A stretch of 64,000 bases of DNA, taken from contig CM017567.1 of NCBI GenBank assembly GCA_007844125.1, positions 39,139,440 through 39,203,439 of the forward strand, given 5' to 3'. The notes below the pieces were generated by a model, which was not told the origin of the DNA, searched no databases, and saw only the letters and a program-made list of their open reading frames with translations. Below are positions 7,801-56,390 of the stretch, one piece after another (position 1 is the first letter of the stretch; each line of letters begins with the position of its first letter). Both the position numbers and the translations under genes were made by a program. The stretch comes from Sinonovacula constricta (taxonomy: Eukaryota > Mollusca > Bivalvia > Cardiida > Solecurtidae).

Positions 7801-10800
7801 GTTAACTAGGTTACGCAACACCTTACGAGGTTTAAGAAACGTAAAACGACTTATTGTCTCTGCAACGTTAACGTTAATCAGACGCATTGAAAACAGGCAG
7901 TTCCGTGGGCAAAAGGTCATGTTTTATTAGCATTTGTTGGGAAAAGATAAAATAACCACAAAACGCATGCTAGTCACATGTTATAGATTGACATTATAAT
8001 TTTTTGATACTCGGTCTCCGTTTTGGCTATGTAAATAGAAGTTGTTCAGCTTTGTTTGTAATATTTTATAAAAACAATAGAGAAACATGCATACACGCAA
8101 AAATAATGTACAAGTGTTCAGTGTGACGGGTTTCTTAAATAGACATGCATTCTTAACGTTTGATTTCTGTCGTTTTCTTTGCAATAAATAGATAAACCCA
8201 TCATGTTTCCCCCATGAGGGGACCTTTGCTGTGAAGAATATGCTTATAAGTATGATACACTGGGGGTCATGTAAAAAGTGACAAAACGTCAGCTACTTAA
8301 AACGTCACATGGTTTAAGAATAGATAGATCCCACATCAATGAAGATCCCGTATCTTGACAGCCATCTTTGATGGCAACTTCAAGGGATTTTCAGAAGAAT
8401 TGTATAGAAGGGTAAGTTTTTGTGTGTGTAATTTCTTCATTTATGGTCCAAAAATTAAAAGCTACACACCATTGGAAAGCTCTTAAAATTCATATTTTAG
8501 AATACAATTTTTTTTTTAAATTAATAGATACAAAAAGAAATAATACAAAGAAATAAATAAAATCATTTGCTTATCCTTAAACAAAATGACCTTTTTGGGG
8601 TTGTATTTTTAACCTTTTAAACTATCAAAATAGAGTTTTGATATTTAAAATACTTCATAAAAGCTGTTAACTTTGATATAAAATTCAGTAAAATAAAAAC
8701 CTAAAAAATAAAAACACAGTGGTGAGTTTAATACAGAATATATTTCCAGATTTCAGCCTGCATTAGTTTCTGATTTCAACGATGACTGCCTTAAACTATC
8801 TTATCAGTGCCCATGACATCACATGGAAACTATCTATTGATAAACTTTTTCAGGATGACGTTGACGTTCCAGACGTTCAGTGGAGGTTACCAGAAGCTGG
8901 TGAATATTGACTATCAAAGTAGGCCCTACGCCACCAGATACTACAGGGGCTATGAGGATGTCACGCAGGTAATCATGGCATTGTAAAATCAATTTATTTA
9001 AATCATGCTAATTTGTAAAGCAATTTAAAGGTGTTATTCGTCATTTTGGACCAAAATATATTTTCTTAAATGACAATAAATTAGTGTTACCTGAACAGAT
9101 CCGGTGAAATGCTGCTTATTGATGTCCAAAATCTAGGTAACAACCCCTTGTCATTACAAACATGTTTGTATTTCCTATCTGAGCCACGCTACACAGTCAG
9201 CCATTTTTAAAATTAGAACACCACGTGACCACTTCCTTTTAAGATCACGTCATATGATCATCCGGGTTATCATCTTTGGCGTCGATATAAGTTTTAGCTT
9301 AAATCCGCATTGTGCTTGTTTATAGATTTGGAAATTAGGAACATTCAAACGATATATTTCACGATTTGTTCTGTTTGATAATTTAGGCAATAGCATTTAC
9401 AACCTTTACTTAAACTATAGTATAAGGTTATGATAAAGCTATAAACACATTCTTCAGAACATGGGTAAGATATTGTTATATGTTTAGATAACGGCAAAAT
9501 GCCAGATACCTTTAACATTTTTTCATACGACTGACTCTCTTAAAAATCTTTTAGATCGATTAATCTAGATGTCAAAGAAATATATTTTATATATTTTTAC
9601 ATTTAACATATATTAATTACATACTTCTGCAAATATACAGTGAATTTTAAGCATTTGCATTGTATAGTTTTGTAGTTTTGCTTTAAATTCAGCATGACAT
9701 GTATTCATGTTTTGACAACAACACTATGACGTAGCAAACGTTTGCTCTAGAGCACACACAATAACGTCTCACCGAATAACGTCTTTAATCTAGTCTGGTT
9801 ACCGTATTATTCGACGGAAACGGTTATTATACAGGCTAAGGCAGGGTACCAATGGTAAAATCAAATGCAATTTTCTATCTCTATTTATGGATTGACCGAT
9901 AACCACCAACCCCTTTAAATATATCATGATATTGACTGGCTGGAATTGTTCCAGCGTCCCAGCCAATGTAAATGCGTCTATTAATAGTTGAACCTGTTAC
10001 ATATTATTTCTAGGTCCGATTTAAGTTTGATTTCCGCGCCCCAACTCACTGTTCAGAGCCCAATGCGTACAATCCAATATGTCCCTCTAAGGCCACTATC
10101 CTGGACATCGGGAGTGCATTTACGAAGGTATGGCAGTGTTAAATAACATATTAATTTCGGGATCCATTGTTTTTTCAATAAACAATAATATAGCAACTGG
10201 ATCAGTTTTGATTTTATTTTTTATCGATTTAGCTATTTTGTTTGATTATAAGTCAATGTATGGACATTGATCGCATCAGGTCAGCTGTACATTGATCTCA
10301 ACATTGACCTTGACCTAAATATTTGAAAGCCGGACTAGTCCTTACACCGAAATTTCTTTTTTACTTTTGTGTCACTATCAGACCAATCAGTGTAGCGTGT
10401 ACGAGTGACGTATGCACGTGACGCGCATGCGCGCAAGCTCAGTTTGATTGTGTAGGTCGTGTTTTATCGATTTAATAACATTGCATCTCGTTACAACACG
10501 TTTGATTCTGCCAACTGTCAAGCCACGTTTAAACTTTAAAAATATCTGAGACTCACTAACTGTGCATTATATTCTTTTGATAATTTATGAAATCAGTTAT
10601 GAAGAGTTACACACTTTTTGCCGTTTTATTAGAATGCGATAACACCTCGTTGGCTCGGCTGGGTGGACGATCTCTCGGGTATATGGGAATATTATGTCGA
10701 AGTTTTCCGATTGGGTCCGAATTTTAACGGAATGTTGACCGAGCTGACGCCGATTAATCCCGAATACACTGCCCTGATATCACACAACGACAGAGCCATT

Positions 10801-13800
10801 AACTATACCAGCTATACACCTACCGAGCCGGGAATGTACAGGTAAGTAAAAGGAACTTATGCATGCTAACAGGTATCAGGTACATACTGGTGATATAGGT
10901 TACGGGTGGTTAAGACTGGAAGTGGGGAGTATCTGACGGTGGGGTGGATATGTGTGGTAAATACAGAAGTGGGGAGAAACTGATGGGAGAGGTGGTTACG
11001 ATGGTAGCGGTGGTTACGGGTGATGAAGGCTTGAAGTGGGGTGCAACAGATGGTAGAGGTGATTACGGGTTGTGAAGGTTGGACGTGTGGAGTAATTGAT
11101 GGTAGCGGTGGTTACGGGTGGTAGAGGCTGGAAGTGGGGTGCAGCTGATGGTAGCGGTGGTTACGGGTGGTAAAGGCTGGAAGTGGGGTGCAGCTGATGG
11201 TAGCGGTGGTTACGGGTTGTGAAGGTTGGAAGTGGGGTGCAGCTGATGGTAGCGGTGGTTACGGGTTGTGAAGGCTGGAAGTGGGGTGCAGCTAATGGTA
11301 GCGGTGATTACGGGTGGTAGAGGCTGGAAGTGGGGTGCAGCTGATGGTAGCGGTGGTTACGGGTGGTAAAGGCTGGAAGTGGGGTGCAGCTGATGGTAGC
11401 GGTGGTTACGGGTGGTAAAGGCTGGAAGTGGGGTGCAGCTGATGGTAGCGGTGGTTACGGGTGGTAAAGGCTGGAAGTGGGGTGCAGCTGATGGTAGCGG
11501 TGGTTACGGGTGATGAAGGCTTGAAGTGGGGTGCAACTGATGGTAGCGGTGGTTACGAGTGGTTAAGGCTGGAAGTGGGGTGCAGCTGATGGTAGCGGTG
11601 GTTACGGGTGATGAAGGCTTGAAGTGGGGTGCAGCTGATGGTAGCGGTGGTTACGGGTGATGAAGGCTTGAAGTGGGGTGCAGCTGATGGTAGCGGTGGT
11701 TACGGGTGATAAAGGCTGGAAGTGGGGTGTAACTGATGGTAGAGGTGATTACGGATTGTGAAGGTTGGACGTGTGGAGTAATTGATGGTAGCGGTGGTTA
11801 CGGGTGGTAAAGGCTGGAAGTGGGGTGCAGCTGATGGTAGCGGTGGTTACGGGTGGTAAAGGCTGGAAGTGGGGTGCAGCTAATGGTAGCGGTGGTTACG
11901 GGTGGTAAAGGCTGGAAGTGGGGTGCAGCTGATGGTAGCGGTGGTTACGGGTGGTAAAGGCTGGAAGTGGGGTGCAGCTGATGGAAGCGGTGGTTACGGG
12001 TGATGAAGGCTTGAAGTGGGGTGCAACTGATGGTAGAGGTGGTTACGGGTTGTGAAGGTTGGACGTGGGGAGTAATTGATGGTAGCGGTGGTTACGGGTG
12101 GTAAAGGCTGGAAGTGGGGTGCAGCTGATGGTAGCGGTGGTTACGGCTGGTAAAGGCTGGAAGTGGGGTGCAGCTGATGGTAACAGTGGTTACGGCTGGT
12201 AAAGGCTGGAAGTGGGGTGCAGCTAATGGTAGCGGTGGTTACGGGTGGTAAAGGCTGGAAGTGGGGTGCAACTGATGGTAGCGGTGGTTACGAGTGGTGA
12301 AGGCAGGAAGTGGGGTGCAGCTGATGGTAGCGGTGGTTACGAGTGGTGAAGGCTGGAAGTTGTGAATAACTGAGGTTAGAGGTGGTTACGGGTGGTAAAG
12401 GCTGGAAGTTGTGAATAACTGGTTAGAGGTGGTAACGGGTGGTAAAGGCTGGAATTAGGGATGTTAGAGGTGGACTAGAAAGCAGATTTTACTGACGGTA
12501 GAGTTAGTAAAGATTAAAAATGGATGGAAATTGGGAATAAATATATGGTAAAGTTAGTCCAGGGTCGCATTAGATTGAAATGCGAATTAACAGATGACAG
12601 AGTTTGTAAAAGGTCACAACGGCGGGTAATCGAAATTAACAGATGACAGAGTTTTTAAGGGTCACAATGAATGGAAATGGGAATTAACATATGGAAAAGG
12701 TGATAAAAGGTGATTGTGGATGGATATTGTTATTTACAGATGGTTGGGGTGGTACATGTACCAAGAGGTGAAGCGTGGTGGTGGATGTCGTGGTCGTTCA
12801 GAGATGACACATGAATGGTATCGGTTAAACGATGTAGTTACAGGTAGCGCAAATAAGCGTTGAGGTGATAATATAAATTGTTAATAGGTGGGAAACGGTA
12901 GCAATAGCTGGTAGGGGTGGTAGCAATAGCTGGTAGAGGTGGTAGCAATAGCTGGTAGTGGTGGTAGGAACAGCTGGTAGTGGTGCTAACGGCTGGAAAG
13001 CTAGGGAGGTAAGGTAGTTTCTTGGTACATGTAGAAGTGGTATACATATTGAGGAACGGTAGATAAAGTAACTAATGTCTGTTAGTGATTGATGTAATAA
13101 TCTCCATGGTTAATTGCTAATTACGACATTATTCTTATTTTTCCCAGTGTCCTCATGGAAACACGTGACGTAGCCAACAACTCCAGAACTTCCCGACGGT
13201 TGGTCTTGTATGATCCAATATCGAAAATCGACATCAACAAAAGCAATGAAAGTAAGCTCTATGCGGCTTCAGCCGTCGCAGAAACTGGTTACACATGGCA
13301 GACTGGCTCATCAGACGGTAAACCAAGTTGTTTTTATTATCGAGACTACGCCATTTGCATTATACATGTATTAAAATTTATTTTTAAGTGACATCTAAAT
13401 TCCATTTCTGTCATTGCTATGTATTGTTTATATCTGTTCAACATGTTTATGACAAGGAGATTTCAAGAAATGCAAATGTTAAGACGTTCAAAACTTGTTT
13501 GAAAACCAGGGGCTAATTGTATAAACAGTGGCTAAATTTTAACCAATGGTTAAAGTTTGGTTACCTAATATATTTTGGTTAACCTGCTGCTTAGCTATTG
13601 TATAAATGTTTTCGTTAATTTAATCTGTTTCAATTTAAACCATTTTGATTAACTTTAACCATTCTCCAAGTGGTCTGTAAAAATTATAATCAAAAATAAA
13701 AATGGCCGGTTATTTAGCAGAACCAACTAGAATGTTGCATTGTGGGATACTTTGGTTAATTTAACTTTTGGTAAAAAATTTAACAGTTTGATTAAGTAAC

Positions 13801-15476
13801 AAAACAGTTAACTGCATTTATACAAATAGATAATCACTTTTGTTAACTAACCAAGGCAGTTAAAGTTATCCAATAGTAAGGGAATAACCAAATGTTAATC
13901 TTAACCAGTGCTGATATTTATTGTCAGTGTTGTAAAAGATTTCAACATGCAGTTTCGACTCCAAATAGAGCGGGCATTTTGTAAATACAATATTAATAAG
14001 CATCGACAAAACATCCGTACCCGGATTCATTGTGAAAACGCTAGAAAGGTCATTTTGTAAAACGTATATTTTAAACAATTATCAATAAAGTTCAGTTTGT
14101 ACCTCGACTTTTGCTAACTCAAATAAAATCAACTTGTACCCACATTTCCCAGGTACTAATGTGCAATTTCGACTACGATGGAGCGGTCATTTTGTTAACA
14201 AGATTCACGAAGAGGGAAAGCTACTGAACGCCGTCCTGCCCTACCCTATCCAGTTTAAAGACATCCAAGATGACGGCGTACTTTACAGCGAGAAGTGAGA
14301 ACATAGTGAATGATATACACCACAAACTCATTATTGGTTATAAAACAATAAGATTCCAAAGTTTCTGAACACACACATATACACACACGCACGCACACAT
14401 ACACACGTACGCACGTACACACTTGTGTTTTGTTATGAGGTGTAAAGCACACAGTAAATAACTTTTAAAGTTTTAAACAAATGGAGCCAATCGGTAAAAT
14501 AGCGGTCATGTGACATAGCTGCCCAACTACTTACATATAATAGTACAGTGTACCTCGTATGTAATTCTGTTGTATTGGTGCATACATTATTGAGTATGTT
14601 CTCTCTGAAAGGTTTGTCAACGCCTCGCTGGACGCTCCTACAGAATACATAGAGGGACAACGTACCCGAGCTGCCATCACAAACTTTCATGGGATAGTGA
14701 AGTTTGAGACAGGCAAAGTACTGGAAGAAAAGGACACTGAGCCGGATCAATGGGACGCCGTACAACCATTAGCTGAAGAAAGGATAATCAGCATGTCTCT
14801 GAGAGATGGTGAGTTGCAGCTATTGATTGATCTCTTGAGAGCGGTGACTCTTATGGAATGCATTTTGTTATGGGGACGATAGTGTAGCCGAAAATTACAA
14901 GAAATCGCAACTGTTCTGTGAGTCCGATAAAAAAATAAGAAAAAAAAACTTTTTTTTTTCTAAAAATGTAATTTGCAACAATAAAATTTAGCTTGTACTT
15001 ATGAAAAAGAAGCAGCCATTTTTAAGAAGTCGTTGCTCTGAGAGTTTGTAGGTTGTAGCTATTGACTAAATATTGGTGCCGCGCTTATGAACGGTGCCTT
15101 TTATGGAATGCATTTTGTTATGGGGACGATAGTGAAGTGGACAAAAACCGGAAATCGCAGCTGTTTTGTGAGACTGTTTTCAGAAAAAAGAGCCGGATAT
15201 TCCGTTTTTTGTTACAGTGTAGCCTGCAACAATAAAGTGAAGCTTGCAATTATGAAAAGGTAGACGACATTTATGTTACCTCCCAGTTGTTGGGCGACGT
15301 TTTGTTTAACAAAAGAAACTGAGTATGTTGTTGTTAACAATGCAGCTTGTAAGCAAGTCTAGTTTCCATTAGAGTCACGGTTCGTTACTCTAAAATATTT
15401 AAGCAACGAATCCCCAGTTTAACAGAGTCTTTATCACACAGCCTAGCCATTATCTCGTTTAAAGCGCATGCTCTCA

Positions 15477-15548
<72 letters not shown>

Positions 15549-18500
15549 GCGGCGCCTTGGGTTTCTCACGTCATGTTTTTTTCTTTGTATGTAAAATGTT
15601 TCTGTGGTTTCTGTGGCGGCCATTGCCAAACTGTTAAAGTCATCGATTCATTGCCACTTACAGCCTCCCGTGAGCACGCACATATGACGTGGATGCACAT
15701 GTGCGTTGTGCTTCCCGCTCGTTGTGTTAATGCCTCTCGCTAGGCGCGGTATGCGCTTCCGCCGTAGTTCTGCATTGTTACGCGTGTTTGGAATGCTTAT
15801 TTAAGAAAACATATCTCACAATTATATTAAATGAAGAAGATGAAGATGATGATGAAGAAGAAGAAGAAGAAGAAGAAGAAAAAGAAGAAGAAGAAGAAGA
15901 AGAAGAAGAAAAAGAAGAAGAAGAAGTAGAAAAAGAAAAAAGAATAAACGATGATGATGATATTTGTGATGATGATAATGATTATGATGAGAATGATATT
16001 TCTGCTCAATAAACAGGAGACAAAGTCAGACTGTGGGTACGAGCGACAGACATCATGGGTAACAAGGTGACTGACAAGACAATCGTGGGTATTGACCGTA
16101 CTGCCCCAACGATGTCTGACAGTTCATTTACCAGGGCACAACATTCGTTCACGGAGAATGTGAAAGATTCCTCATTTGTTTTTAGCTCCAAGTAAGTAAA
16201 CTGCAATATATATCTATGTATACTTTTGGGTTACATGTCACAATGCTTTCAGTATTTTGATCATACTCAGCATTTTTCATTTGTTGATTTTAGACACCAC
16301 TTTAGTTCTTTGCTTTTACATAAACCCCTCAGAACATTGATAATAAAATGTAATTTGATAATACACAGTCCTTTAAGCACTTTGATTATATAATTTCAGT
16401 GTCAAGGTGGCAACGTCTGACGATGAGAGTGGAGTGTACCGTATTGACTTCAAGATCTGGATGACCATCAATGGTCGGGAATTTCTACACAGTCGATGGT
16501 CAGAGGATGCCAACTCTGCCCCTGTGAGACGTTTTATCGTATACATGTATTTTAAAATGCAGTACATTTTAGTAAGGCAGTAAACTGAAATTTACCATGA
16601 ATACAAACTATGTTACGTTTTATTCTTTTAATTTGATCTATTGAAATTTGTCTATATGTATGTCTTGGTTGTTTGGTTCCATTTCAGATACCAAATCCTA
16701 ACTGCAAAGGAACTTTTGGGAACAGATGTTTTATTCCCCAGCAATCAATCGACATCGACAACTGTCGCTTCATAGTCAACAAAACTGACCTGGACAATGC
16801 CTCGGCGCGGCTGGAGGTTGCCGGTGTGAACCAAGCTCTTCTCTCAACGTCCACCAACTTCTCAGTAAGCCGATCAAGTTGTGGTCGTTGTAATTCTCGT
16901 CAGAATCGTCCGTATCCATCACATCGAGCATCATCGCAAGCATTATCGCTAAAGTCAGCGTTTTCTGTTAGCACTTTGATCTTTGATTTTACACAGAACT
17001 CTAAGCACTTTGATTTAGAATGCTAATCCTATTATGTTCTTGCATAATCTTGGTATCAAAATTTATGTGTTGGTGTTTTGTAGGTTGGACCTGTTAACAA
17101 ACTAGGAGGACTGGAAAAATGTAAGTGGACTTTATTTTCGTTTTCTTCCGTCCTTTGAAATTCAACTATCAGTTTGTGTATGTAATTGTATTTGTATCGT
17201 ACCAGGTCACTTACGTTCTTCAGCGAAGATATTATTGTATGCTTATCTTTCTAATCTTTCTAATGCTACTTGCAGTGTTACTCGATTAGATAACATTGGG
17301 TTCCAGTCATATTATCATGGTGTTGGCCTACAAGCACATGAATTGCATTTACTTTAGGGTAATAATTAAATATCAAACACTAACCATAATGTTTTTCAAA
17401 ATGTCTTTGTATGTCTTAGGAATGGAAATTGTGCGTTTGCTTTCATTGATACTGGCGTTGGTGTTTTGTCGTGTACGTTGAGCTACATAAATATTGCTTT
17501 ACCGACAAAGCGGCTACACATGTCATTTTAGCAATGTTATACTCTTATACTCTTATGACAAGTAGATCGGTTAATAAGTAAGTAATTTAATATGTGTACT
17601 TACTGTTCTTGTTCTAGATTCGGGTCCGACTAATATCCGGACAGAAAATCCGACGGCTAACGGCTTTCGGGTCAGATGGGATTTACCGGAACACCCGTCG
17701 TGTTACGGCATCGCTGACATTGTCATTATTATCATCAAAACCGTATGTTATCATGATTATTACACCTTGATTAAAATATTCTATATCAACCGATTCAACT
17801 TAATAGTATGTACATCTTCCGTATTCCTCATTGTCTTGCGTTTCTGGCAATTCACGGTTTAAACACAGGTTCTTGTCCAATTATCTATCTGTAGTGGGTT
17901 TGTTTTGTTTTTGTTTATACCGCAGCGACCAATTATGATCATTATAGCAATGTCCAGGTTTGTGGCGGAGGAATATCCCAGACAAATGTCAGGGTAGAAC
18001 CATCGGCGCACCGTAAATCAGCTGAAAGACCTTCGATCCGAACGGGACTCGAACCAACACGGTGAGAGTCTAAGCTGTCAAGGAGTTACAAATCGGCGAC
18101 TCTAGAACTATGCCACTGACGCCCCCGTAGTGGGTTTGACCAAACCGTTTTGCCCAATGTTACATGTACGATCGGTGTCGCTATATAAGTTTATTTATAA
18201 AATGGCACGTTTACTAAACGACGAAATGGTGTAACAGAAAAAACAGGCCAGCAACAAACTAGTACAAAAATGTTTTATTTTAATAAACAATTAAATCTAT
18301 GGCGTAATAAAACAATTACAAATAAATGAGACAAAATTTTTATAAATCAAAATAAATGTTAGCTTACAGTTTGTCCCTTTAGGAGTTGTCCCTTTAATAG
18401 TCCAATTAATAATCCAACGTCGAATAATCCTGAAGAGTTTTCGGTAGAATGACATCGTAGATAAGCACAGTTGAAATAATCCAAAGGTAGAACAATACAC

Positions 18501-21500
18501 GAATGTAAATTATATAATTCCAAATCCAACACAATAATATTTATATCACTGTAGAATATAGTAAGTCCACGTAATTTTCAACACAGAAAGATTTAAGATA
18601 GAAGCTGCAAGTATTTCCAAACTATATGTCCAATCTCTAAAGCAAACTTTATATCCAAACTTCCAAACATAACTTTTGATCGGCAAACACGCCCTAATAT
18701 ATACACAAAAGAATTTCCAGAACATTCAGGAACCCAGAACATTCTCGAAAATCAGTTAAAAATAAACAATTGAACTTTCTAGCATGATCCTTTTCTTCTA
18801 GCAGTTACGCGAATGCTACGTCATCAAAACCACAACGGTAAACAACCCTTAACCAGACTAGCGTTACCTTAAACGCTGGTATACTATTATACATAACACC
18901 AGAAACAATAGATGCTTTTTTCCCGTGACATGACTTCGGTTACCTTCCTTTACTGCAGGATGCCACCGGAAGAGATGTGCAGGAGGTCTATTCAACTTCT
19001 GGCACAGCGACATACTTCGACATCTTGGGCCTTGAGCCAGAAACAACTTACTCACTCAAATTTAGCGTGAAAGGCATCGGAGATTCCGAAACAGACTTCA
19101 AAGCACAGACGGGTTTGTGAACATATGTTTGTAAACATTTGTTTGAACAAACTGATATGACTCTTTTCGTTAATAAGGACAAAAACTTCAATCCCTTTGG
19201 GGTATATATTTGTTAGATATGTATAGTTACTGTATATTTTTCTTCTAATGTTTTAATATTGAAAAAGCTTTAGACTGCAATTTGCCCAACGAATAACCAA
19301 TAAACGACTAGACCCAAAAATAGAAACTATTCCACCGGATTTGACCATCTCAAGGACGCTATCAATTGACACATTTTAAAATGTTAACATTTAACAGATT
19401 CGACATACAGAGAAATTATAATAGCCTATTTTCTATTGCTTTATACCCATAACTTTACAATTTGTTTGTTGGGTTTATCGTCCCACCAACAGTATTTCTG
19501 TTATCTAGAGACGGTGTCCACTTGAAGCAGATACAGTATTGCCTTCACTGTGTATAGCATGCCATGAACACCTTGCATATTACCACACCCAGTCACATTA
19601 TCCTGACACCGGGCCAACCAGTCGTTGAACTACCCTTATATTTGCTTGAGCGTAAGTAGCGCTATACCATTACCATTTTAACGACTTTGGTATGTCGCAC
19701 CCCGGGATCGAACCCTCGGCCTCCCGTACCTGGAGCCGACGCTATTCCGAGTGCGCTACCAGGACCGGTAAACTTAACAGTACAATGCATCATCGACAAA
19801 ACTGATCCCAATTGCAGGCAACAGATTTTCAGGCATATGGCAGTTAAATGTTTATCGGATATGCCCATTGACCTCCCGGGGGGTGTGGTTAAATTTGCTC
19901 TATCGATCGGACAGTTCTATTTTGCGAAATAAGTTAAAAATAAATAAATATGGATATGTGTTGTGAGAAAAAGAAACAACAACTCATAAACAAAGTATAA
20001 AGATGAAATGTGATTATTCTAATACAAAGTAAATAAAAAACACTCTACACAAAAGAGATTACTTAAACGTATCAACACGAAAAGCATGAAATCACGAAGA
20101 AAGTTGAATGTGTTGACATTACATGCAACATGACATCGTCATTGACATCATGTTTTGCTAACGGAAGACAAATTCTACTTGACTTGAAAATTGTTTTCTC
20201 TTTTAATCGATTGTTGCAAAAATAGTTTTATTTTGAAACTACGGAAAAATAGACAATTTTATGGATATGAAGTGGCAACATACATGGTAGGCATGAATGT
20301 CCTTGGGAAATGGCAGGTAAAATGCACCAAATCACTTGACCTATGTGGTGTTCGTTGTTCTTTATTTTCATCAAGTATGAGATATGATTAAATACAAAAC
20401 TATGATATGTGTAAATTATTTGTTCTGAATATATTTTTTCAGAATATGGGATGTTATTTAACCGCCAAAAATATGCTTTCTACAACATTTGGTTTGCATG
20501 TGAATACCGTTTTCCAGCGCCTTTTCAAATTTTCGTATATGTTGCAAAACTAGCAGAAATTTGCCATATTCCTTATTCATGATTACAACAATGTTACCTG
20601 TGTATTGTGGCGGTCGTCAAAAATCTCCCAGTGCATGTAATCTATGTTGTCATTTAATTCATCCCATGAAGATTGTAACGTGTCCTTTTCTTTGATGGGC
20701 ATTTGACTTTGGTTCCTTCATTCCATCTACAAATAAACCAAATATTACAACCATTTGTACTTCCCTGGTATTTTTTTCTATGATTCTAAAGGTAATTCAT
20801 TTAAAAAATTACTATCTTCCATTTTGTGTAGTTCTTCTAATGGAAATGATACTTCCCTCTCTTCTAGATACCACGTGGACATTATTTTTTAATTACGTCA
20901 CTGACGACGTCATATCTTATCTATGAAAAGGTCAGCGCTTGGACATTTTTTATTCCAATAGATCGGTTTTCTTTTCATTCCTTGTATTTGAGAAACCCCT
21001 CAGGAAGTGGGAGATTAGAGCTCTGTAAAACCGGTTTAAGCACCCACTTTTGCCGACTGATCGTTCCAAGGCGTTAACTGTTGGGTTCGCTCTTTTTGTT
21101 TAGAACGTCGGGAGGTCGCGGGTTCAAACCCCGGCCGGGTAAAACCAAAGACTTTAAAGTTGGTAGTAGTGGCTTCCCTCCTAACGCTCTGGGCTAATGG
21201 GACAGCATTACGCCTGACTCGCTGGTGTTAGTGTAATGGACCGGCTCAATCCCTGGGCACCTCATAAGTGCCCCAGTGCTATAATGATAGAAATATTGCT
21301 GCACAGTATCTGCAAAAATTTTGTTTAATGACTCATCACAACTTTGTTCTTGATATTACATTTGACTTGTTTGTCCTGTGTCAGATTTTGGTAGAATACC
21401 TTCGTCCTGTGCCATTTCAGATTTTGTTAGAATACCTTCGTCCTGTGCCTTTTCAAATTTTGGTAGAATACCTTCGTCCTGTGCCTTTTCAGATTTTGGT

Positions 21501-24500
21501 AGAATACCTTCGTCCTGTGCCTTTTCAGATTTTGCTATATATTGAAATGCTTATAAGACTTATATTGCCTTATTATTAAGAATGTTACGTTCATTGATTG
21601 TTTTTCCCGAACCTTAAAATCCATTGTTAACTGTATTTCTAGGATCACCACCATCCGGAGGCATTGGTACGGGAGCCATCGTGGGTGTGGTTGTGGGTAG
21701 GTGACCTTTTTTTTTTTTAAAAAAAAATATTGATTAGTTGTAACGTTGTTCTATCGTTAGTCACATTGTTGTTGCTGCTTCTGATAATGATGACATTCTT
21801 ATGATGGTGCTCTTCACAGGTCTTCTTTTGGCATGTTGTCTGGCTGTCGCCGTGCTGTTTGTACTGATGAGGAAGGGGATAATCCATCCTCAGGAAAGAG
21901 CGAGAGAAATCCGACGTGCCGTCACTGTTAAAGCTCGGTCCATGCGTAGACGGACAAACCAGCACGTCTTTGCTAACGCCGGATATGAGGTCAGTTGACG
22001 CCTAAATGCCGTAATCTGGAGTAAACTGTTAAATGGTTAGCAAACATGTAACATACAAACACACATTTAACTAGCATTTTATAAATGAAGAGGTACATTC
22101 AATACGTTCGGACCCTACGTAGACGGACACTCCAGCACGTCTTTGCTAATATGAGGTCAGTTGACGTCTACGTGTGGCTGGCGTGAACTTTCACACGCGT
22201 TGATATTAACAAGGGAGTTAATTTTAAAAGCGCTGATACTACGCATTGCTAGTATAAATAGCAGATACATTTCATTGTTTCCATTAAACTAATATTTACA
22301 TAAAACTATGATGTTTTGAACTGGAAATATGACAAAGTCCTATGAGCATTGCAACACAATAATTGAAAAGGTACAGGACTAAGGTATTCTCATGAAAGCC
22401 AAATGTAAAAGTCAGAAGAAATCTGTGACGAGTCATTAAGCAAATTGAGCAAACCCAACAGTAACCGCATTGAAACGGTCAATCGGCAAAAGGGACCGAC
22501 TGAGGTGCTTAAACCGGTTTTACAGAAAACATGTATACTTTATGTAACTAGCTTCTCTATTGAAGTAATTGTGTACTTCAGTATTGTTTATAAATAGATG
22601 AGAAAGTTTATGAGAAAGTTAAGAACATTATGAACCGTCCATAGACTTGAGCGAACCCTGTTATCTGGAAGTACGACCGGCCGCAATAGCTCAGGTGGTA
22701 GAGCGTCGGCTTGCGGATCGGGAGGTCGTGGGTTCGAACCCCGGCCGGGTCAAACTAAAGACTTTAAAGTTGGTAGTAGTGGCTTCCCTCCTAACGCTCG
22801 GGGCTAAAGGGACAGCATTACGCCTGATTCTTCGGTGTCAGTATAATGGACCGGCCGGGTTCAGACCTTGGGCACCTCATAAGTGCCCCTGTGCTATAAT
22901 GATAGAAATGTCGCTGCGCAGTATCGGCAAAAATGCCGGCTTGTCCCATCCATCCCATCCCTGTACCGTATGTTCCGTGTTATAATCCGCAATTGAATAT
23001 AAGACAACAATGCCTTTTTCACTATTTATTCAGCAATGGTGCTTTCACACTGCATACTAAACTTACATTTCCAGAATTAATTCGTGTAACTGCTGACAGT
23101 GACCCTTTCTTTTCTATCCGCATTTCAGGCCCGCCAGAGTGACTTGTATACATACGGTATTGAGGATGTCGAAGGCTGTACACAATGGCAACTCGACCGG
23201 AATGACGTCACCTTAGAGTCCCTACTCAAGGCCGGTCACTTCGCCAACATCTACACCGCCCGAATGAGAAGTTATAAATACAAGGTCGTTGCTAAGTTGT
23301 TGAAAGGTGAAGGTCAAGCTTGGTCTTTTTGTTTTTATTGTAGTACTTTATTAAAAATATAAACTGTTATCGTTGATGTGATAGCTTTCAATTGGCTTAA
23401 ACGATTTTGCGTTATGAAATTGTTAAAAAATGAAATTGATACATTTCATATCACATAGATTTTTAGACACGGTACACATTTTAACAATTAAACTAAAGTG
23501 TGATGTATTTGTTTTCGAAACGGTGATTGTTTACATTTTCAAGATACAACAAAAAACATTTTCCGTCCGTCCGCCAGTTATATATTTAGCAACTGTTAGA
23601 AAGCAGTTCATCGCCATGAAACCTCGCACAATCAGCGATAACCATTTGCAAATTTTGACATACTGGTCATGTTGTAAAACAAAGGTCAATGTCGCTGTTC
23701 AATGTTAAAGTCATATTGCTGTTGCCATTTTAATACTGTAAATGATTTCACGGAACATAAGAGGTATATCTTCCTGGAACCCTTATAGTCACACTGCACA
23801 CTCCGATAGATCACAGGAATGTTGTTAAACATGCTTCATCAGCATGATCAACAATAAAGGGGAAGATCGCATTTCAAAGACATACGTCTGTGTAACACCA
23901 TTTACATAGGATGTTATTTAGCTTTTAATTTCAAATTCTTTAAATAGTACATGTATGAGTGCTTGAAATTAAGTATTAAAATTAAAGAGCCAACGTCATA
24001 TTGTAGTTTAAATACGTGACGGAGAGAACTTTATTTATTTTTAAATTATTGTCTCACGTTCGATCTGACGTAAATACTTAATATTCTGTAATTGCACTTG
24101 GCGATGTTCTATACTTTGAGATTATAACGTCTTAAAAAAGCTGAACGCCGTCGCGACAAAGATATTTTTCATCTTAAGACAATCCAATAAGTGGAGAGAC
24201 ACGTTGTATACATATAAAGTGATGATCGGAGCGATTCATTGAGAACTAATATTCATTCTTTAGTGTGGTTCATGACAGTTTGTGATTATTTGATCTTCAA
24301 TTAAAAATAACAAAAAAGACATTTTGCTAACTGTCGACTCAGTCGCTATAGGATAAGTAACTTCTTACAGAAAACTTCACGGCTGAAGACACCACCGTGA
24401 TGAGAGCAAAGATGAACTTCGCCGGCAAGAAAGTTGGAGACCATCCGAATATTCTCAAGTTTTTAGGCGGGGTCGTGAGCGACACAACACGTACGTCTAT

Positions 24501-27500
24501 ATGGCATTGTGTTTCTTTGCCTTCGCCATTTGGAGTATTGTTGAAGTGCATTATAGTATACCCATGTCCTCTGTGTGTCCGCTGTGCGTCCATGGAATTT
24601 TCTTCTCCGATCGATAACTTATGCTGGACATATTCGATTAACATCGCAAGTCAGCTGGAAGACCTTCCCACATTAAGTCCTTCGCCCCGACCGGGACTCG
24701 AACCCACGCGGTGAGAGGCGAATAAGTCAGAGGAGTAACAAATCGTCGATTCTACCACTACGAAAAACGGGCACCACCACCCCCACTCTATCTGTTTTTA
24801 TAAGACCTTTTTCTTATTATCCTTATTCAATGCTTTCAAGCTTACATTTACCGTGTATATACCGTCAGCCTTAGAGTTATCGCAGACTTTGATGAAGCAT
24901 CTTTAAAGGACATTCGGTGTTTCCACATATTGCATGTACTCCATGAAGGTAATATCATACATAATGGTAATTTTATATAAATATATTATTTAAAAAGTTT
25001 TACCATGTGTTTGCAATATTTTTGAATCAGAGACCTCGAGTTTATTGCGTGCGGTTGGGCTAAAAAAATTCCAAAATGCCCCTGAAACGCCATTGTTTCA
25101 TAACATTTTCAATATTTTTAATAGTTGAGTGTTCTACGGATAATACTCGAGACACTGGATAAAATATATTATTCAGGACTGTTTTATATTGTTAACACAT
25201 TTCTTAATTCAAATCCACTGTATTTGAGTCATAATCCAGCATTTGATTCTTTCTATAAGGCATATTAAATGTTCCTAGTATTATTGATACTTGTTTTTAT
25301 ACTTATTTAAGTTGATAATAATTTATTTTGAACCTGGCCTGTTTCCAGTGGGACCATTCATCTTATATGAGTACTGCGAGAAGGGTACGCTTCGAGACTA
25401 CCTGGTCAGCAACCAAGGCAAAGTGACTGTGGACGTCCAGGAGAATCTGTTCCGATTCTGCCTAGAAATTTGTAAAGGCATGTCGTATTTAGCCAGCAAC
25501 CAGGCGAGTTTATTACATTAATATTGTTTTTTAAATAAATTTACGTTATTAGTCCTATAAAAAAGCCCCTGCCACGTTCAATAACACGACGGCCTGCTTT
25601 AAATCAGTGCCAATATCAATATCACTTTTTCGGCGCCGGGAAATATTGTCAATTTTCAAACATTCACGGCATAAATTGGAAGTGTTTAGCCGAATGTGTC
25701 ATTTTACAACGTGTAGATTTCACAAAAACACAAACACGCATTTTATGACTTGGATAAATGCAAAACTAAGTATTAAATGTGAAATGTTATAAGCACATGT
25801 AATTATTATTTAATAAAAGTGTCAATAAATAAGTGATTTGATATTTGCCCTGTTATCTGCCCGCATCACTTATCACTTATTTATTAACATATAATAAAAA
25901 CTTTCGTGTGTATGCCTCCGTTGCCGAATTGGAAGTTATTTGTTACATCACGACCTCTTAAAATGTTTGTTTCCTGATTGGATGAGGCCTTTTGTGAGGT
26001 GATCAGCCCCCAGTTCTATGGTTCGCCGGATTTCGCTCAGATTGTGAAATAGGGTTCAATACCGTCAAAGTTGCTTGCAAATATGTGAACTTCTAGCTCC
26101 TAATTGTTGATAAACTTCATTCTCTTACTCAAAAATCTTAGGATGGATTTATCCGAAGTTCTTTATCCTTTATATATTTGCTTATCGCTTGCCTTGTTGT
26201 TGTTTCAACAGATTGTGCATCGGAGACTGGCGGCCCGAAACATTCTACTGACGCTGACGAACGAAGTAAGGATTTACGGATTTGGTCCTCAGCCTAACGA
26301 GGAAGATGGCGCCGACGCTGAAACCGCCAAGAAAGTTGGTCTCACATAAAGTTTTGTTGTTGTTTGATTTTATGTATATTTTAATGTTCGTCAGTTTGCT
26401 CTAAGTAGACCTCGAATATGCATGTATGTTCAAGTGTACGTGCATGTGTGAGTGATAGTATTTGTATCTTCTTTTTTATTATTGTGATATATTTTTATTA
26501 TAAGTGACACAATTGTTGCACCATAACCTGTGACAAAGTTGGCATGCCTTCGTTCAATTTCAAACGCATTATTTAAATATGAAATCACTACGTAAATTGT
26601 TTAATAATTCCTAAAAGTAAACCCAGGGAAGGTTTGTGCTTGATAGTATACTCAAATCCTAACTGATATAAAATTCTAAATATGCCATCCAAAATAATGT
26701 TATATACGTAACTTAAAGCCAGTCTGCGGTGGAGCAGCGGAAAATACAAAAGTTCCTCGGCCTGATCTGTATTTTTAGTCAAGCAGTCAAACAGACGTTT
26801 TACTCTTTACTAAACACAATCATGTTTCATCTTAATTAACTATACACTCTTATGTCCGATTCGAAATTAACCAAGCCATTGCTCTATTGCCCAGGAACGA
26901 ATATTTCAAACTTTGAATTATTCGATATAAACCAAACATCCGTTGCTGTATTTCCTAGGAGCGGATCCCCATCAAATGGATGGCACCGGAGTGTATGATC
27001 TCAACTAAAGACGCCTCAGAAAAGAGCGACGTCTGGTCATTTGGAATCGTCGTGTGGGAGATCTTCAGTCTAGGTAATGGCTGGTGCTGTTGTCGATATT
27101 GTGGTTGATTATGTTATAGATGTTTCCAGCGTTTGGCAACTTTTGTTTTAATTTTGATAGTTTTAATTGATATCAGAATCTCACTTTTGCATCTATAGCT
27201 AAGGGACACATATTCTACAAAGTGCAATTACGCTTGTTATTTATCGTTGAAAACTGTGGTACACCGTCATAGTATGCATTATAAGCTTATACATTATAGA
27301 TATACAAGCAGTAAGTTTAAATGACGAATGTATTGAATATATGTACACAGGCCAGAACCCGTTCGAGAACATCCGGAGCAAGGACCTACCATCTCGAGTC
27401 AAGAAAGGAGAACGTCCCGCCAAACCGGAACAAGCAGACGACACGTACGTTGATTTATAAATACATTTATAGATCTTGACGTTTCTGTATTTAAGTTGCC

Positions 27501-27945
27501 TCTACAGTTAGAAGTATTTCATTCGCATTGTGTTTCTATGCTTTCACGTTATAAATAAATATGTTTCCAAAATACCAGATTAACTTTGTACACTGTAAGC
27601 GATAATTAAATATCCAGTGCATTGACTGTTGGATTAATAAACGTATAATTTTTTTTTTATTTAATGCTAATATTTGCATATGATATTTACTTTTAAACGT
27701 TGTTTTCCGTTGTTTTGTTTACACTCACTTTATTTGTTGTCTTTTCAAACGATATTAAATGTGTACATATTTACTTATTTATCAACATGGCTCTTTTTCG
27801 TTTCATGTTTAGTTGGTATGGTATCATGACGCGTTGCTGGACCTACGAACAGCGGAAGCGACCGAAATTTGCCGACATTTGTCCGGAAATCGAAGGCCTT
27901 TTCGTAGCACCCTCCGGGGATGACAACTACTACTATCAGCGTTAG
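209..27945 (+). CDS. Receptor-type tyrosine pseudokinase with EGF-like/FN3 ectodomain (gene 1, 5' end outside window)
   Basis: Single-pass membrane receptor predicted to bind an extracellular ligand and signal through a kinase-like but probably inactive cytoplasmic domain. Twenty-seven exons with GT-AG borders (one GC-AG) sum to 3,637 nt: one base completing an upstream codon, then 1,211 codons and TAG at 27943-27945, every junction keeping phase. Order: Cys-rich segment (residues about 1-34, counted from the first complete codon), EGF-like (34-66), second Cys-rich (66-102), long ectodomain (103-738), FN3-like (739-831), transmembrane (about 838-866), juxtamembrane (867-925), kinase-like domain (926-1198) and a short tail with three adjacent Tyr. 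By comparison with gene 2, two 5' exons (signal peptide and one Cys-rich exon, about 55 residues) lie upstream. Exons are listed in the domain entries. The architecture is known from invertebrate receptor kinases; I cannot assign a named subfamily. Gene-model confidence is high, exact edges slightly less so. Confidence 0.86.
1190..1430 (-). mobile_element. Decayed SINE, family 1 (fragment)
   Basis: Shares the body of the family seen at 6551-6862: a GTCGGTGTCC-like start, TGTGTATA, CATGATACCACA, GACACCGGG, TTTGCTTGAGC and TACCATTTTAATGACTT. The tRNA-like head is heavily degraded. It lies in a gene 1 intron in reverse orientation. Confidence 0.6.
1935..2810 (+). mobile_element. Interspersed element B, interrupted by element A
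   Basis: Segments 1935-2093 and 2608-2810 together match the uninterrupted copy at about 9020-9400: TTGTTACCTGAA and CCGGTGAAAT-like on the left; AGCCACGCT, ACCACGTGAC-like, GCGTCGATAT and CGATATATTTCACGATTT on the right. No ORF. The corresponding intron of gene 2 (61251-61769) lacks it. Superfamily unknown. Confidence 0.65.
2094..2607 (+). mobile_element. MITE-like element A, nested inside element B
   Basis: About 514 bp, non-coding and AT-rich. The ends are inverted: ATAGATAGTTTCC at the left and AACTATCTAT at the right, with a subterminal CATCTTTGAAGG / CCATCAAAGATGG pair. A second copy lies reversed at 8319-8838. The uninterrupted element B at 9020-9400 supplies the empty site. Non-autonomous DNA transposon inferred. 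Confidence 0.65.
3175..3391. repeat. Compound triplet microsatellite in gene 1 intron
   Basis: Successive ACA, ATA, TTA and GAT tracts fill most of the 339-bp intron between exons 2992-3102 and 3442-3577. The equivalent intron of gene 2 is 336 bp and also rich in GAT triplets. Long ORFs through here are low-complexity shadows. Confidence 0.9.
4794..4876. repeat. (ACGC)n / (CA)n microsatellite
   Basis: Alternating purine-pyrimidine ACAC and ACGC units in a gene 1 intron. Such tracts can adopt Z-DNA; no function is implied. Confidence 0.88.
5060..6530. repeat. 26-bp minisatellite, about 55 copies
   Basis: Unit close to GGCAGTAAGTGTATAGGTGG plus TACAMT, 26 bp, with sporadic 25-bp variants that lose one G (TATAGTGGTAC). 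It occupies about 1.47 kb of the intron between exons 4229-4383 and 7128-7284. Every unit carries GTAAGT, the ideal metazoan 5' splice-site hexamer. Several overlapping minus-strand ORFs here are repeat artefacts. Confidence 0.92.
6551..6862 (-). mobile_element. tRNA-derived SINE, family 1
   Basis: About 310 bp. Read on the minus strand, it begins with a tRNA-like head (box A-like GCGCAATCGGTAGAGCGTCG; a box B-like region near 6800) and ends near GGGACGATAAGCCCAATAAA. Further copies: 19461-19768 (-), 54165-54478 (+), 56806-57102 (-), 57711-58021 (+). In a gene 1 intron. Confidence 0.78.
8319..8838 (-). mobile_element. MITE-like element A, second copy, abutting an exon
   Basis: Reverse-orientation copy of 2094-2607, with shared stretches such as TTAACAGCTTTTATGAAG, ATGCAGG.TGAAATCTGG and CACCACTGT. 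The right end (GGAAACTATCTAT) lies about 15 bp before the exon starting at 8854, so the branch-point region of that intron must fall at the element edge or inside it. Confidence 0.68.
9020..9400 (+). mobile_element. Interspersed element B, uninterrupted copy
   Basis: Matches 1935-2093 plus 2608-2810 across the element A insertion point: ACAAACATG runs directly into the CTATCT..AGCCACGCT segment here. Lies in the gene 1 intron after the exon at 8854-8968. No ORF. Confidence 0.62.
10900..12480. repeat. 49-bp G-rich minisatellite, about 32 copies
   Basis: Consensus unit starts GATGGTAGCGGTGGTTACGG and continues GTGGTAAAGGCTGGAAGTGG then GGTGCAGCT, 49 bp. Copies vary at a few positions (TGATGAAGGCTTG, GTTGTGAAGGTTG) and the edges are more divergent. 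It fills most of the intron between exons 10633-10841 and 13148-13317. A related short array of 'GGTAGCAATAGCT' units lies at 12890-12990. Confidence 0.92.
12890..12990. repeat. Short 'GGTAGCAATAGCT' tandem repeat
   Basis: About four units of a ~21-bp motif (AGCTGGTAGNGGTGGTAGCA) next to the 49-bp minisatellite, probably of common origin. Confidence 0.75.
13508..13880. mobile_element. Possible AT-rich fold-back MITE
   Basis: Inverted relationships are visible: TTGTATAAA on the left against TTTATACAAA on the right, and repeated GGTTAA/TTAACC motifs throughout. No ORF. The boundaries and target duplication are unclear, so this is tentative. Lies in a gene 1 intron. Confidence 0.35.
14812..15290. 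repeat. Imperfect tandem duplication, ~252-bp offset
   Basis: Two adjacent units share TATGGAATGCATTTTGTTAT followed by GGGGACGATAGTG (14852-14884 and 15104-15136) and then weaker similarity (AAATCGCA.CTGTT.TGTGAG, GCAACAATAAA). The first unit begins at or just after the 3' splice junction of exon 14612-14808. Confidence 0.75.
15476..15545. repeat. (CT)n microsatellite
   Basis: About 70 bp of uninterrupted CT dinucleotides in a gene 1 intron. Confidence 0.95.
15832..16005. repeat. (GAA)n / (GAT)n triplet tract next to an exon
   Basis: Purine-rich GAA run followed by GAT units, ending 12 bp before the exon at 16017-16191. The acceptor (ATAAACAG) therefore has almost no pyrimidine tract, which is unusual. 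Confidence 0.9.
17618..19112 (+). other. Gene 1 FN3-like module split over two exons
   Basis: Exons 17618-17742 and 18959-19112. The first carries [20 protein letters not shown], matching the FN3 B-C strand pattern with the core Trp. The second carries [19 protein letters not shown], the FN3 'L.P.T.Y.f.V' signature around the E-F loop and F strand. Length is about 93 residues, normal for FN3. The 1,216-bp intron between them holds a SINE at about 17920-18130. Membrane-proximal FN3 domains are common in receptor tyrosine kinases. Confidence 0.82.
17920..18130 (-). mobile_element. tRNA-derived SINE, family 3
   Basis: On the minus strand the head reads GGGGGCGTCAGTGGCATAG, box B-like GGTTCGAGTCCCG, then a body shared with 54577-54815 (+) and 24640-24780 (-). 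Lies between the two FN3 exons of gene 1. Confidence 0.7.
19461..19768 (-). mobile_element. tRNA-derived SINE, family 1
   Basis: Same body and tRNA-like head as 6551-6862 (box B on the minus strand GGTTCGATCCCGG). In the gene 1 intron before the transmembrane exon. Confidence 0.78.
20930..21075 (-). repeat. Interspersed repeat, family 4
   Basis: Carries the reverse complement of AAAACCGGTTTTACAGAG.. and GGTCAGTCGGCAAAAG-like sequence; related to 22435-22520 (+), 40395-40535 (+) and more weakly 42405-42495 (-). No ORF; class unknown. Confidence 0.6.
21090..21320 (+). mobile_element. tRNA-derived SINE, family 2, 5'-truncated
   Basis: Begins inside the tRNA-like head (GGGTTCAAACCCCGGCCGGG) and then follows the body of the full copy at 22676-22970: AAAGACTTTAAAGTTGGTAG, GGCTTCCCTCCTAACGCTC, GGCACCTCATAAGTGCCCC. 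In a gene 1 intron. Confidence 0.75.
21379..21535. repeat. 36-bp tandem repeat, 4.4 copies
   Basis: Unit TTTTCAGATTTTGGTAGAAT plus ACCTTCGTCCTGTGCC, 36 bp. Being a multiple of three, it keeps one frame open (repeated [12 protein letters not shown]), but it lies in an intron of gene 1 and is not part of its coding model. Confidence 0.9.
21643..21989 (+). other. Gene 1 transmembrane and juxtamembrane exons
   Basis: Exons 21643-21696 and 21820-21989. The joined product has a Gly-rich lead ([15 protein letters not shown]), then [15 protein letters not shown] followed by a basic stop-transfer MRKG. This is one hydrophobic helix of about 25 residues with a GxxxG-like N-terminal half, a pattern known to favour helix-helix contact. 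The juxtamembrane segment is strongly basic ([18 protein letters not shown]) and ends near a Tyr (NAGYE). Topology inferred: type I, N-terminus outside. A short degenerate duplicate of the end of the second exon lies downstream near 22118-22170. Confidence 0.86.
22105..22172 (+). pseudogene. Degenerate partial copy of a gene 1 juxtamembrane exon end
   Basis: CGTAGACGGACACTCCAGCA, then CGTCTTTGCTAA and ATGAGGTCAGTTGACG, repeats the end of exon 21820-21989 with its donor and following intron bases, minus CGCCGG. The reading frame is not maintained as an exon. Local duplication offset about 175-180 bp. Confidence 0.75.
22435..22520 (+). repeat. Interspersed repeat, family 4
   Basis: ACGGTCAATCGGCAAAAGGG, then ACTGAGGTGCTTAAACCGG; sister of 40395-40535. 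In a gene 1 intron. Confidence 0.6.
22676..22970 (+). mobile_element. tRNA-derived SINE, family 2, full length
   Basis: The head resembles a tRNA: CCGGCCGCAATAGCTCAGG with box A TAGCTCAGGTGG, an anticodon-arm region, then box B GGTTCGAACCC and a closing stem CCGGCCGGG. The body ends in a short CCATCC repeat (22948-22962). Pol III-type internal promoter inferred; not a functional tRNA because a ~200-bp SINE body follows and is shared with 21090-21320. Confidence 0.82.
23129..27945 (+). other. Gene 1 tyrosine-kinase-like domain lacking catalytic residues
   Basis: Exons 23129-23306, 24371-24490, 25349-25503, 26212-26334, 26959-27073, 27351-27444 and 27813-27945. The fold landmarks are present: VVAKLLK with the subdomain II Lys, [44 protein letters not shown] (tyrosine-kinase type P+1 loop), [17 protein letters not shown] and [13 protein letters not shown]. 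The catalytic set is broken: glycine loop reads [11 protein letters not shown], the alphaC Glu position aligns with Met (KMNFAGKK), HRD reads HRR and DFG reads GFG. The gatekeeper position reads Tyr. No Tyr lies between GFG and APE. The tail DDNYYYQR offers Tyr that another kinase might phosphorylate. Phosphotransfer is therefore unlikely; scaffold or allosteric signalling is the inference. A sequencing error would need to hit several codons independently. Confidence 0.88.
24640..24780 (-). mobile_element. tRNA-derived SINE, family 3 (partial)
   Basis: On the minus strand: GTCGATTTGTTACTCCTCTG-like sequence then GGGTTCGAGTCCCGG. The same family as 54577-54815. In a gene 1 intron. Confidence 0.65.
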
Positions 27946-49179: not shown

Positions 49180-49299
49180 AAACCACCAAGGTCACCTGTA
49201 AGAGCACCTAAAATATAGTCTAAAAAAATTAAGTTTAATAATCCCATGAGTAATAGAATCATTCAGTGGATCTGACGAGGTCTTAAGGACCATTACAAT

Positions 49300-54164: not shown

Positions 54165-54478
54165 TTACGTAGCGCAATCGGTATAGATTCGGCTTCAGGT
54201 ACGGGAGGCCTCGGGTTCGATCCTGGACCGCAACATACCAAAGTCGTTAAAATGGAAGTGGTATAGGCCCTTTGCTGACGCGCAAGCAAGTATAATGGTA
54301 GTTCCACGACTGGTTAGTTCAGTGTCAGGATAATGTGACTGGGTGTGGTATCATGCCAGGTGTTCATGGAATGCTATACACAGTGAAGGCTGCACTATAT
54401 TTGCTTCGAGTGGACACCGTTTCCAGGTAACTAAAATACTGTTGGTGGGACGGTAAACCTAGTAAATAAATAAATAAA
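54165..54478 (+). mobile_element. tRNA-derived SINE, family 1
   Basis: Head TAGCGCAATCGGTATAGA with box B GGTTCGATCCTGG, body CATACCAAAGTCGTTAAAAT, and tail TAAATAAATAAATAAACC. Best-preserved plus-strand copy in the window. Confidence 0.8.
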
Positions 54479-56090: not shown

Positions 56091-56094
56091 AGAG

Positions 56095-56140: not shown

Positions 56141-56390
56141 ATGGCACATGCCGGCAAATGTGTATGCGCATTATTATTATGCGGAATCGTTCTGGTTCTA
56201 AATACGGAGACTGCTGAGGGCCAGACTTACACGGGGTGAGTTGTTATAAGTTAAGATAATTTTAAAAGTATTTATGTCTGGTAAGAACGATTTTTCCTTC
56301 ATCGATTTTTGTCAAAACGCCAATAAACTTGATTAAATAAGATGCCGTTAAGTGTTAATCAAAACATTTTATAGACGAAATTTTAAGCTT

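Follow-up and report, generated by a model that had tools for sequence, protein, structure and literature searches.

A predicted receptor tyrosine pseudokinase of Sinonovacula constricta and its HRR/GFGP family in molluscs

The window analysed here is a stretch of 64,000 nucleotides from the bivalve Sinonovacula constricta (GenBank assembly GCA_007844125.1, 1.22 Gb; contig CM017567.1, positions 39,139,440 to 39,203,439 of the forward strand). It holds nearly all exons of a receptor gene, whose kinase part lies at 23129-27945, and the beginning of a second tandem copy of it. Judged by its architecture, by the residues that its kinase fold has lost and by selection, the gene is predicted to encode an intact single-pass receptor, namely a receptor tyrosine pseudokinase. 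Both Asp of the HRD and DFG motifs are missing, the same replacements are found in relatives among bivalves and gastropods, and the altered domain is under strong purifying selection between the tandem copies.

The receptor gene and its altered kinase fold

The seven exons that encode the kinase fold (exons 23 to 29 of the list below) join in frame into 305 amino acids and a stop, and this domain is matched by Pfam PF07714 with an E value of 4.9e-68 and 229.7 bits, the curated cut-off being 23.1. Five of the six introns between them are GT-AG and one is GC-AG; the GC donor, CAG/gcgagt at 25503, is the sole non-GT donor among the 28 introns of the gene, the other 27 being GT-AG. By spliced alignment with three Mercenaria/Ruditapes relatives as templates (P0093, P0095 and P0099), 27 consensus exons without a stop were recovered within the window, small extra exons and some splice ends varying by template. 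The left flank, taken from the animal's own genome, adds a start exon and a second exon, and the full gene has 29 exons and an open frame of 1266 amino acids with a single terminal stop. An earlier note on this DNA had described seven in-phase kinase exons and an open reading frame (ORF) intact over 27 exons; the join and the intact frame hold, and the count applies to the window, the gene itself having 29. The start exon encodes a signal-peptide-like sequence (by eye), which is conserved in the second tandem copy, and in both copies TATAAAAG lies 56 bases 5' of the ATG (locus L009, 609-616; window 56085-56092; by eye). As for the relatives, P0094 (1107 residues) is carried on contigs of which the longest has 5225 bases, and for P0111 (1149 residues) the figure is 4600 bases; short contigs with more than 1000 codons in one frame would be spliced transcripts, if those genes have similar introns.

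The exons are as follows, exons 3 to 22 being based on the spliced alignment to the three relatives and on the full joined frame (transmembrane is abbreviated as TM).

Exon 1, window coordinates -9335 to -9241, left flank: start exon, from the full frame
Exon 2, window coordinates -241 to -173, left flank: from the full frame
Exon 3, 209-309 (+): ectodomain, N-terminal Cys/Trp/Tyr-rich part; start 204 or 209 by template
Exon 4, 1469-1564 (+): EGF-like from its cysteines (by eye); one template extends to 1568
Exon 5, 2992-3102 (+): EGF-like from its cysteines (by eye); the longer ORF piece has no Pfam match
Exon 6, 3442-3577 (+): ectodomain
Exon 7, 4229-4383 (+): ectodomain; 3' end 4383 or 4394 by template
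Exon 8, 7128-7284 (+): ectodomain; 5' end 7128 or 7177 by template
Exon 9, 8854-8968 (+): ectodomain
Exon 10, 10014-10127 (+): ectodomain
Exon 11, 10633-10841 (+): ectodomain
Exon 12, 13148-13317 (+): ectodomain
Exon 13, 14153-14294 (+): ectodomain
Exon 14, 14612-14808 (+): ectodomain
Exon 15, 16017-16191 (+): ectodomain
Exon 16, 16400-16523 (+): ectodomain
Exon 17, 16688-16864 (+): ectodomain
Exon 18, 17084-17120 (+): ectodomain
Exon 19, 17618-17742 (+): fibronectin-III-like domain (fn3) begins, as assigned from some relatives
Exon 20, 18959-19112 (+): fibronectin-III-like domain; 3' end varies by template
Exon 21, 21643-21696 (+): stalk and start of the TM helix
Exon 22, 21820-21989 (+): TM helix, according to the model of relative P0097, and juxtamembrane part; 3' end differs in one template
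Exon 23, 23129-23306 (+): juxtamembrane LYTYG, glycine loop KAGHFA, beta3 VVAK (direct reading, alignment)
Exon 24, 24371-24490 (+): alphaC without Glu, VMRAKMNF (direct reading, MAFFT, hhalign)
Exon 25, 25349-25503 (+): hinge, Tyr gatekeeper, GC donor (direct reading)
Exon 26, 26212-26334 (+): catalytic loop HRRLAARN, GFGP (direct reading, alignment)
Exon 27, 26959-27073 (+): IPIKWMAPE to SDVWSFG (direct reading)
Exon 28, 27351-27444 (+): C-lobe (direct reading)
Exon 29, 27813-27945 (+): end of C-lobe, tail DDNYYYQR, stop (direct reading, tail comparison)

In the kinase fold, HRR replaces HRD and GFG replaces DFG, the gatekeeper is Tyr, the glycine loop has lost its first and third Gly and kept the middle one, the activation segment contains no Tyr, and the tail is DDNYYYQR; all of these features, which the earlier note had listed, are seen on direct reading. 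For the alphaC Glu position the note had given Met. MAFFT and an hhalign profile comparison agree instead on the Lys of AKMNF, one residue before that Met, with a register uncertain by about one residue, and no acidic residue occurs anywhere in M-R-A-K-M-N-F. The further statement that every phosphotransfer motif except the Lys is altered is right for HRD, DFG and alphaC and too sweeping as a whole, as APE, the alphaF Asp, the middle Gly and the Mg-binding Asn (LAARN) persist alongside the beta3 Lys (VVAK). Arg stands in place of the HRD Asp, which is the catalytic base, Gly in place of the Mg-binding Asp of DFG, and Lys in place of the alphaC Glu; with these three losses the fold is, as judged from its sequence, very unlikely to transfer phosphate. 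A splice error or an alternative exon restoring HRD or DFG was rejected, since a six-frame scan of the window and flanks for HRDxxxxN-like and DFG-like motifs gave two matches, and the single one in the window (- strand, 2395) is unrelated; chance or an alternative exon is also unlikely because the relatives carry the same substitutions.

The architecture is that of a receptor, with a signal-peptide-like start, a hydrophobic segment (by eye) and a tyrosine-kinase fold according to Pfam and to the fold of relatives. In the AlphaFold structure of the full-length Mactra relative P0097 the outer part is rich in beta strands, and a helix at 816-841 is read as the TM helix. For the Dreissena relative P0001, modelled likewise, with 59 rows aligned, the mean predicted local distance difference test score (pLDDT) is 81.7; most of the kinase part exceeds 90, and part of the activation segment is low. 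Foldseek and VIA-align match this model to a range of domains, including those of FGFR, Eph, Met, KIT and VEGFR, and no pseudokinase title is present in the best 50 VIA-align rows, which is uninformative against one existing. Pfam gave nothing above its cut-offs for nine window ORF pieces outside the kinase; in relatives it finds EGF and fn3, and in Mytilus P0153 a von Willebrand A (VWA) domain. According to precomputed annotation, three Mytilus proteins of about 800 residues (P0143, P0153 and P0158, of which P0153 was scanned) join a VWA domain and EGF repeats to the dead kinase. All NCBIfam matches fell far under the cut-offs; apart from a single weak match to a domain, they were generic kinase ones.

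Two tandem arrays lie within introns of the receptor gene, at 5046-6528 (26-base unit, 57 copies) and 11000-12454 (49-base unit, 30 copies). A dispersed repeat of about 300 bases is present at 6552-6862, 19461-19769, 54169-54470, 56806-57102 and 57709-58020, with 83-85% identity in the pairs compared; two of the five copies sit in receptor introns.

The mollusc family and the tandem copies

The first protein search returned 92 proteins, and among the best 23 all rows with a species name were molluscs; the full-length search returned 330, of which the best 120 of 330 were used, and the ectodomain search 38, of which 29 were already in the set. Altogether 221 proteins were collected, 217 of which match the window domain, and 212 (at least 60 bits) were aligned with it, nine being left out. 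A cut-off of at least 150 bits to the window domain defines the family, consisting of 140 rows, that is, the window and 139 database proteins. Not one of the 140 family domains has Asp at the HRD position, nor do any of the 139 non-gap rows at the DFG position, and Pro follows GFG in all 139 non-gap rows. The alphaC column holds Lys in 132 of 133 non-gap rows, the beta3 Lys is present in 130/132 and the catalytic-loop Asn in 140/140. In the 73 non-family rows, four of which are family fragments under the cut-off (P0037, P0215, P0216 and P0221), the HRD Asp occurs in 63/68 and the DFG Asp in 57/68 non-gap rows. Moreover, 20 columns set the family apart, each with a residue that at least 90% of its members and at most 20% of the other kinases carry; they include three positions of AKINF (Lys, Asn and Phe), two of GFGP (Gly and Pro) and the Cys that follows APE. 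The activation segment is without Tyr in 131 of 136 cases in the family and in 23 of 68 among the other kinases. Every family row that names its species comes from a bivalve or a gastropod (clams, mussels, oysters, snails). The window protein carries the signature of this family, H-x-[RHK]-LAARN, GFGP, an acidic Tyr tail and the shared ectodomain, with AKMNF where the family has AKINF. The loss of the HRD and DFG Asp is family-wide in the sequences compared and is read as inherited from an older common ancestor, not as particular to the window gene.

The tail is a further shared trait. It was located in 126 of the 140 family rows, and the 124 tails of 20-60 residues were counted. In the last 14 residues, at least two Tyr are present in 117/124 tails and at least three in 107/124, the mean being 3.17, when 0.6 is expected from the overall Tyr frequency of 4.5%. 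In 112 family tails YY occurs inside the last 20 residues.

A tree was built after removal of the catalytic and other trait columns, with the kinases that the search returned as the other kinases, not a balanced set of receptor tyrosine kinases. One branch (97/79) separates 48 pseudokinase rows from the rest, and another (99/97) sets off the 47 mollusc rows. A partial protein of the annelid Capitella teleta (P0037), below the family cut-off, has HRRLAARN, GFGP and an acidic Tyr-containing tail; its row has a long branch and reaches its best identity, 48% over 143 columns, with a Monosiga kinase. The best-supported split places Capitella with the other kinases, and its union with the molluscs, at 97/79, falls short of the tool's star. 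Because the row is partial, its branch long and the union not starred, the kinship of the Capitella protein rests mostly on the shared motifs. For the window domain, the best PDB row names EGFR but adds two stretches of 115.4 bits, and the Src-Abl ancestor row comes next with 164 in one; no row named ErbB is found among the kinases in the tree.

Within the animal's genome the family is expanded in tandem. The second copy has matches to nearly all exons at 60565-81578 in window coordinates and a start exon at 56141-56235, and it runs past the right edge of the window (loci L010 and L011). Its parts in the window include the following.

56141-56235 (+): start exon (MAHAGKCVCALLLCGIVLV...), by tblastx to the left-flank exon, as long as the first copy's exon 1
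60574-60666 (+): coding core matching exon 3
61157-61249 (+): EGF-like exon matching exon 4
61772-61879 (+): EGF-like exon matching exon 5
62219-62350 (+): exon matching exon 6

The third copy is inverted and was traced from 113394 to 93432; the exons of its N-terminal part lie outside the searched region or were not found. Between copies 2 and 3 lie decayed fragments with broken motifs and stops, HRGMACPN/YGFCP and HRTLTSQN/VY*FGP (window coordinates 86099-88673). Genome-wide, the APE exon is matched at no less than 50% identity in 22 places (six on C13, one on C16 and 15 on C3), some of which may be assembly duplicates or decayed. The loci that were read contain 14 distinct family-like catalytic exons, including the two decayed fragments. 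In the remaining 12 neither Asp is present: ten read HRR, one HKR and one HNR, and GFG is found in 12/12; L040 and L041, which are among them, read identically and may be one gene assembled twice. Four other kinase loci were matched, of which L001 and L002 have HRD and DFG, and L003 and L004 (on C3) have HRD with HMC for DFG; from sequence likeness we take the latter two to be a PTK7-like kinase.

Remains of mobile elements were recognised by eye in the same window: non-LTR (long terminal repeat) retrotransposon remains with CCHC zinc knuckles and endonuclease-like and reverse-transcriptase-like frames with stops at 48382-53277 (+), a mariner-like transposase remnant in several frames at 45440-46548 (-), and a MULE-type-transposase-like frame at 43694-44113 (-).

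Selection was measured as dN/dS (the ratio of nonsynonymous to synonymous substitution rates) by the Nei-Gojobori method on 300 pseudokinase codons of the window copy and its two neighbours, which are paralogues, not orthologues. The values are 0.134 for copies 1-2 (bootstrap 0.083-0.205), 0.149 for copies 1-3 (0.091-0.231) and 0.066 for copies 2-3 (0.022-0.134), and over these three pairs no bootstrap sample attains 1. On codons common to the three copies, the pseudokinase with its tail gives 0.138, 0.157 and 0.066 in the same order, and the ectodomain (675 of 851 codons) 0.270, 0.290 and 0.252; the bootstrap intervals are separate in 1-2 and 2-3 and overlap slightly in 1-3. The four ectodomain exons that lie within the window in both copies give 0.29 (0.18-0.45). 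Purifying selection on the dead kinase domain is strong and constrains it more than the ectodomain, the kinase domain having the lower dN/dS in all three copy pairs.

Proposed function and rival explanations

It is probable that the gene encodes a maintained receptor tyrosine pseudokinase which signals through partners and whose tail would be phosphorylated by another kinase. The protein would be laid out as a signal-peptide-like start, EGF-like exons, a beta-rich ectodomain, a fibronectin-III-like domain, the TM helix, LYxYG, the kinase fold and the Tyr tail. Its ectodomain may bind a ligand or a partner, and the pseudokinase may serve for protein interaction, forming dimers with an active tyrosine kinase or recruiting one. 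This partner would then phosphorylate the acidic Tyr tail, perhaps also the juxtamembrane Tyr, and the phosphorylated tail would dock SH2 proteins. The logic would be that of HER3, an inactive receptor with a tail that is its partner's substrate, and kinship with HER3 is not implied. A maintained non-enzymatic function, as put forward in the earlier note, agrees with the family-wide Asp losses, the 12 undecayed exons in the genome and pseudokinase dN/dS values of 0.07-0.16; orthologues with HRD and DFG and a dN/dS near 1 were sought and not found, paralogues standing in for other individuals. As for its suggestion that DDNYYYQR is a substrate of a partner kinase, the Tyr-rich tail does prove to be conserved, and phosphorylation by the partner is what we infer.

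Real decay is present in the cluster, in the fragments between copies 2 and 3, and the window gene might likewise be a former receptor kinase that lately lost catalysis and is now dying. Its complete frame of 1266 amino acids, a pseudokinase dN/dS of 0.13-0.16 against the two neighbours and the identical substitutions across bivalves and gastropods speak against this, and decay was rejected on these grounds as extremely improbable. The fold could also act as a non-canonical enzyme, either a weak kinase or one with other nucleotide-transfer chemistry, given that the beta3 Lys and the catalytic-loop Asn are kept almost throughout the family and that the near-invariant new residues (GFGP, AKINF) might form a different site. 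Such an enzyme is very unlikely, however, since basic residues stand where the base and the alphaC Glu would be, the Mg-binding Asp is replaced too, and nearly all members lack the activation-segment Tyr. Finally, the receptor may work mainly through its ectodomain, in adhesion or as a decoy, with the kinase fold only anchoring it passively. The ectodomain is the larger part and varies among relatives, as the VWA domain of the Mytilus member illustrates, and 5/38 ectodomain matches are without a Pfam kinase domain (P0213, P0214, P0217, P0220 and P0221), two of the five being labelled partial and P0221 matching the start of the kinase part. A fold that is a passive anchor is nevertheless unlikely in view of the lower dN/dS of the pseudokinase in every pair and of the Tyr tail that is kept.

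Several points weigh against the maintained, partner-dependent pseudokinase that is preferred here. The retained beta3 Lys and catalytic-loop Asn make nucleotide binding possible and residual or unusual chemistry conceivable. The family was set by similarity to the window domain, and its 140 rows are not independent observations because many are paralogues, isoforms or gene-model fragments. At most one Tyr is present in the last 14 residues of 7/124 tails, and it is from tail conservation that the substrate role is suggested. The 57 TM-juxtamembrane codons have dN/dS of 0.507, 0.408 and 0.332; the intervals are wide, two extending beyond 1, and dS there is 0.05-0.11, against about 0.4 elsewhere (pairs 1-2 and 1-3), and gene conversion could lower dS.

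Known receptors and significance

FGFR, KIT and VEGFR, the kinase domains of which are active kinases, are among the nearest folds, with 26-34% identity among the matches listed. In public annotation some relatives are named 'fibroblast growth factor receptor' or 'angiopoietin-1 receptor-like', and the lost residues are unmentioned in these names. HER3/ErbB3 resembles the window protein in its proposed mode of action and, according to Table 2 of a 2026 review (PMC13259870), in being a receptor with an altered HRD and a lost alphaC Glu that keeps the beta3 Lys and the catalytic-loop Asn; it differs in that HER3 has HRN with DFG kept, whereas the window protein, with HRR and GFG, has lost both Asp. 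In the same table GFG is also given for EphA10, and for EphB6 RLG and HRS with Arg as the alphaC residue; neither of the two retains the beta3 Lys (VAVH, VAIQ) or the catalytic-loop Asn (H, S), both of which the mollusc family keeps. No ErbB or Eph ectodomain was recognised in the window gene. PTK7, ROR1/2, RYK and STYK1 are likewise receptor pseudokinases acting through partners, and each of the five reads HKD and so retains the HRD Asp, where the window has Arg (PMC13259870). Among the eight human members of that table, none loses both Asp and the alphaC Glu while keeping the beta3 Lys and the catalytic-loop Asn. Venus kinase receptors are an invertebrate receptor tyrosine kinase family in which some members are described, with caution, as being without catalytic motifs (PMC3703292); they have a Venus flytrap ectodomain, and none was detected in the seven relatives of the window gene that were scanned.

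Judged by titles and the beginnings of abstracts, the papers that the literature searches listed include none on a mollusc receptor pseudokinase and none describing an HRR/GFGP family, and the mollusc family is apparently undescribed. The oyster kinome paper (PMC4883820) counts 70 tyrosine kinase (TK) genes and regards five TK as 'TK-unique', and the word 'pseudokinase' is absent from its text.

More tentatively, and with considerable doubt, it may be supposed that this is an old family of inactive receptors, of bivalves and gastropods and possibly of an ancestor shared with annelids, which was expanded in tandem into receptor arrays in molluscs. Its varied ectodomains, joined to a highly conserved dead kinase and an acidic Tyr-cluster tail phosphorylated by a shared cytoplasmic kinase, might form an invertebrate recognition repertoire with the logic of ITAM (immunoreceptor tyrosine-based activation motif) receptors.

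What is known of receptor tyrosine pseudokinases comes mostly from eight human proteins. The mollusc family has lost both Asp and the alphaC Glu, with replacements that hardly vary, and its genes are multiplying in tandem. Labels such as 'fibroblast growth factor receptor' or 'CSK' on mollusc genes of the family would be misleading if these were taken as active kinases. With so many natural paralogues, the family would allow one to ask what a kinase fold is conserved for after catalysis has been lost.
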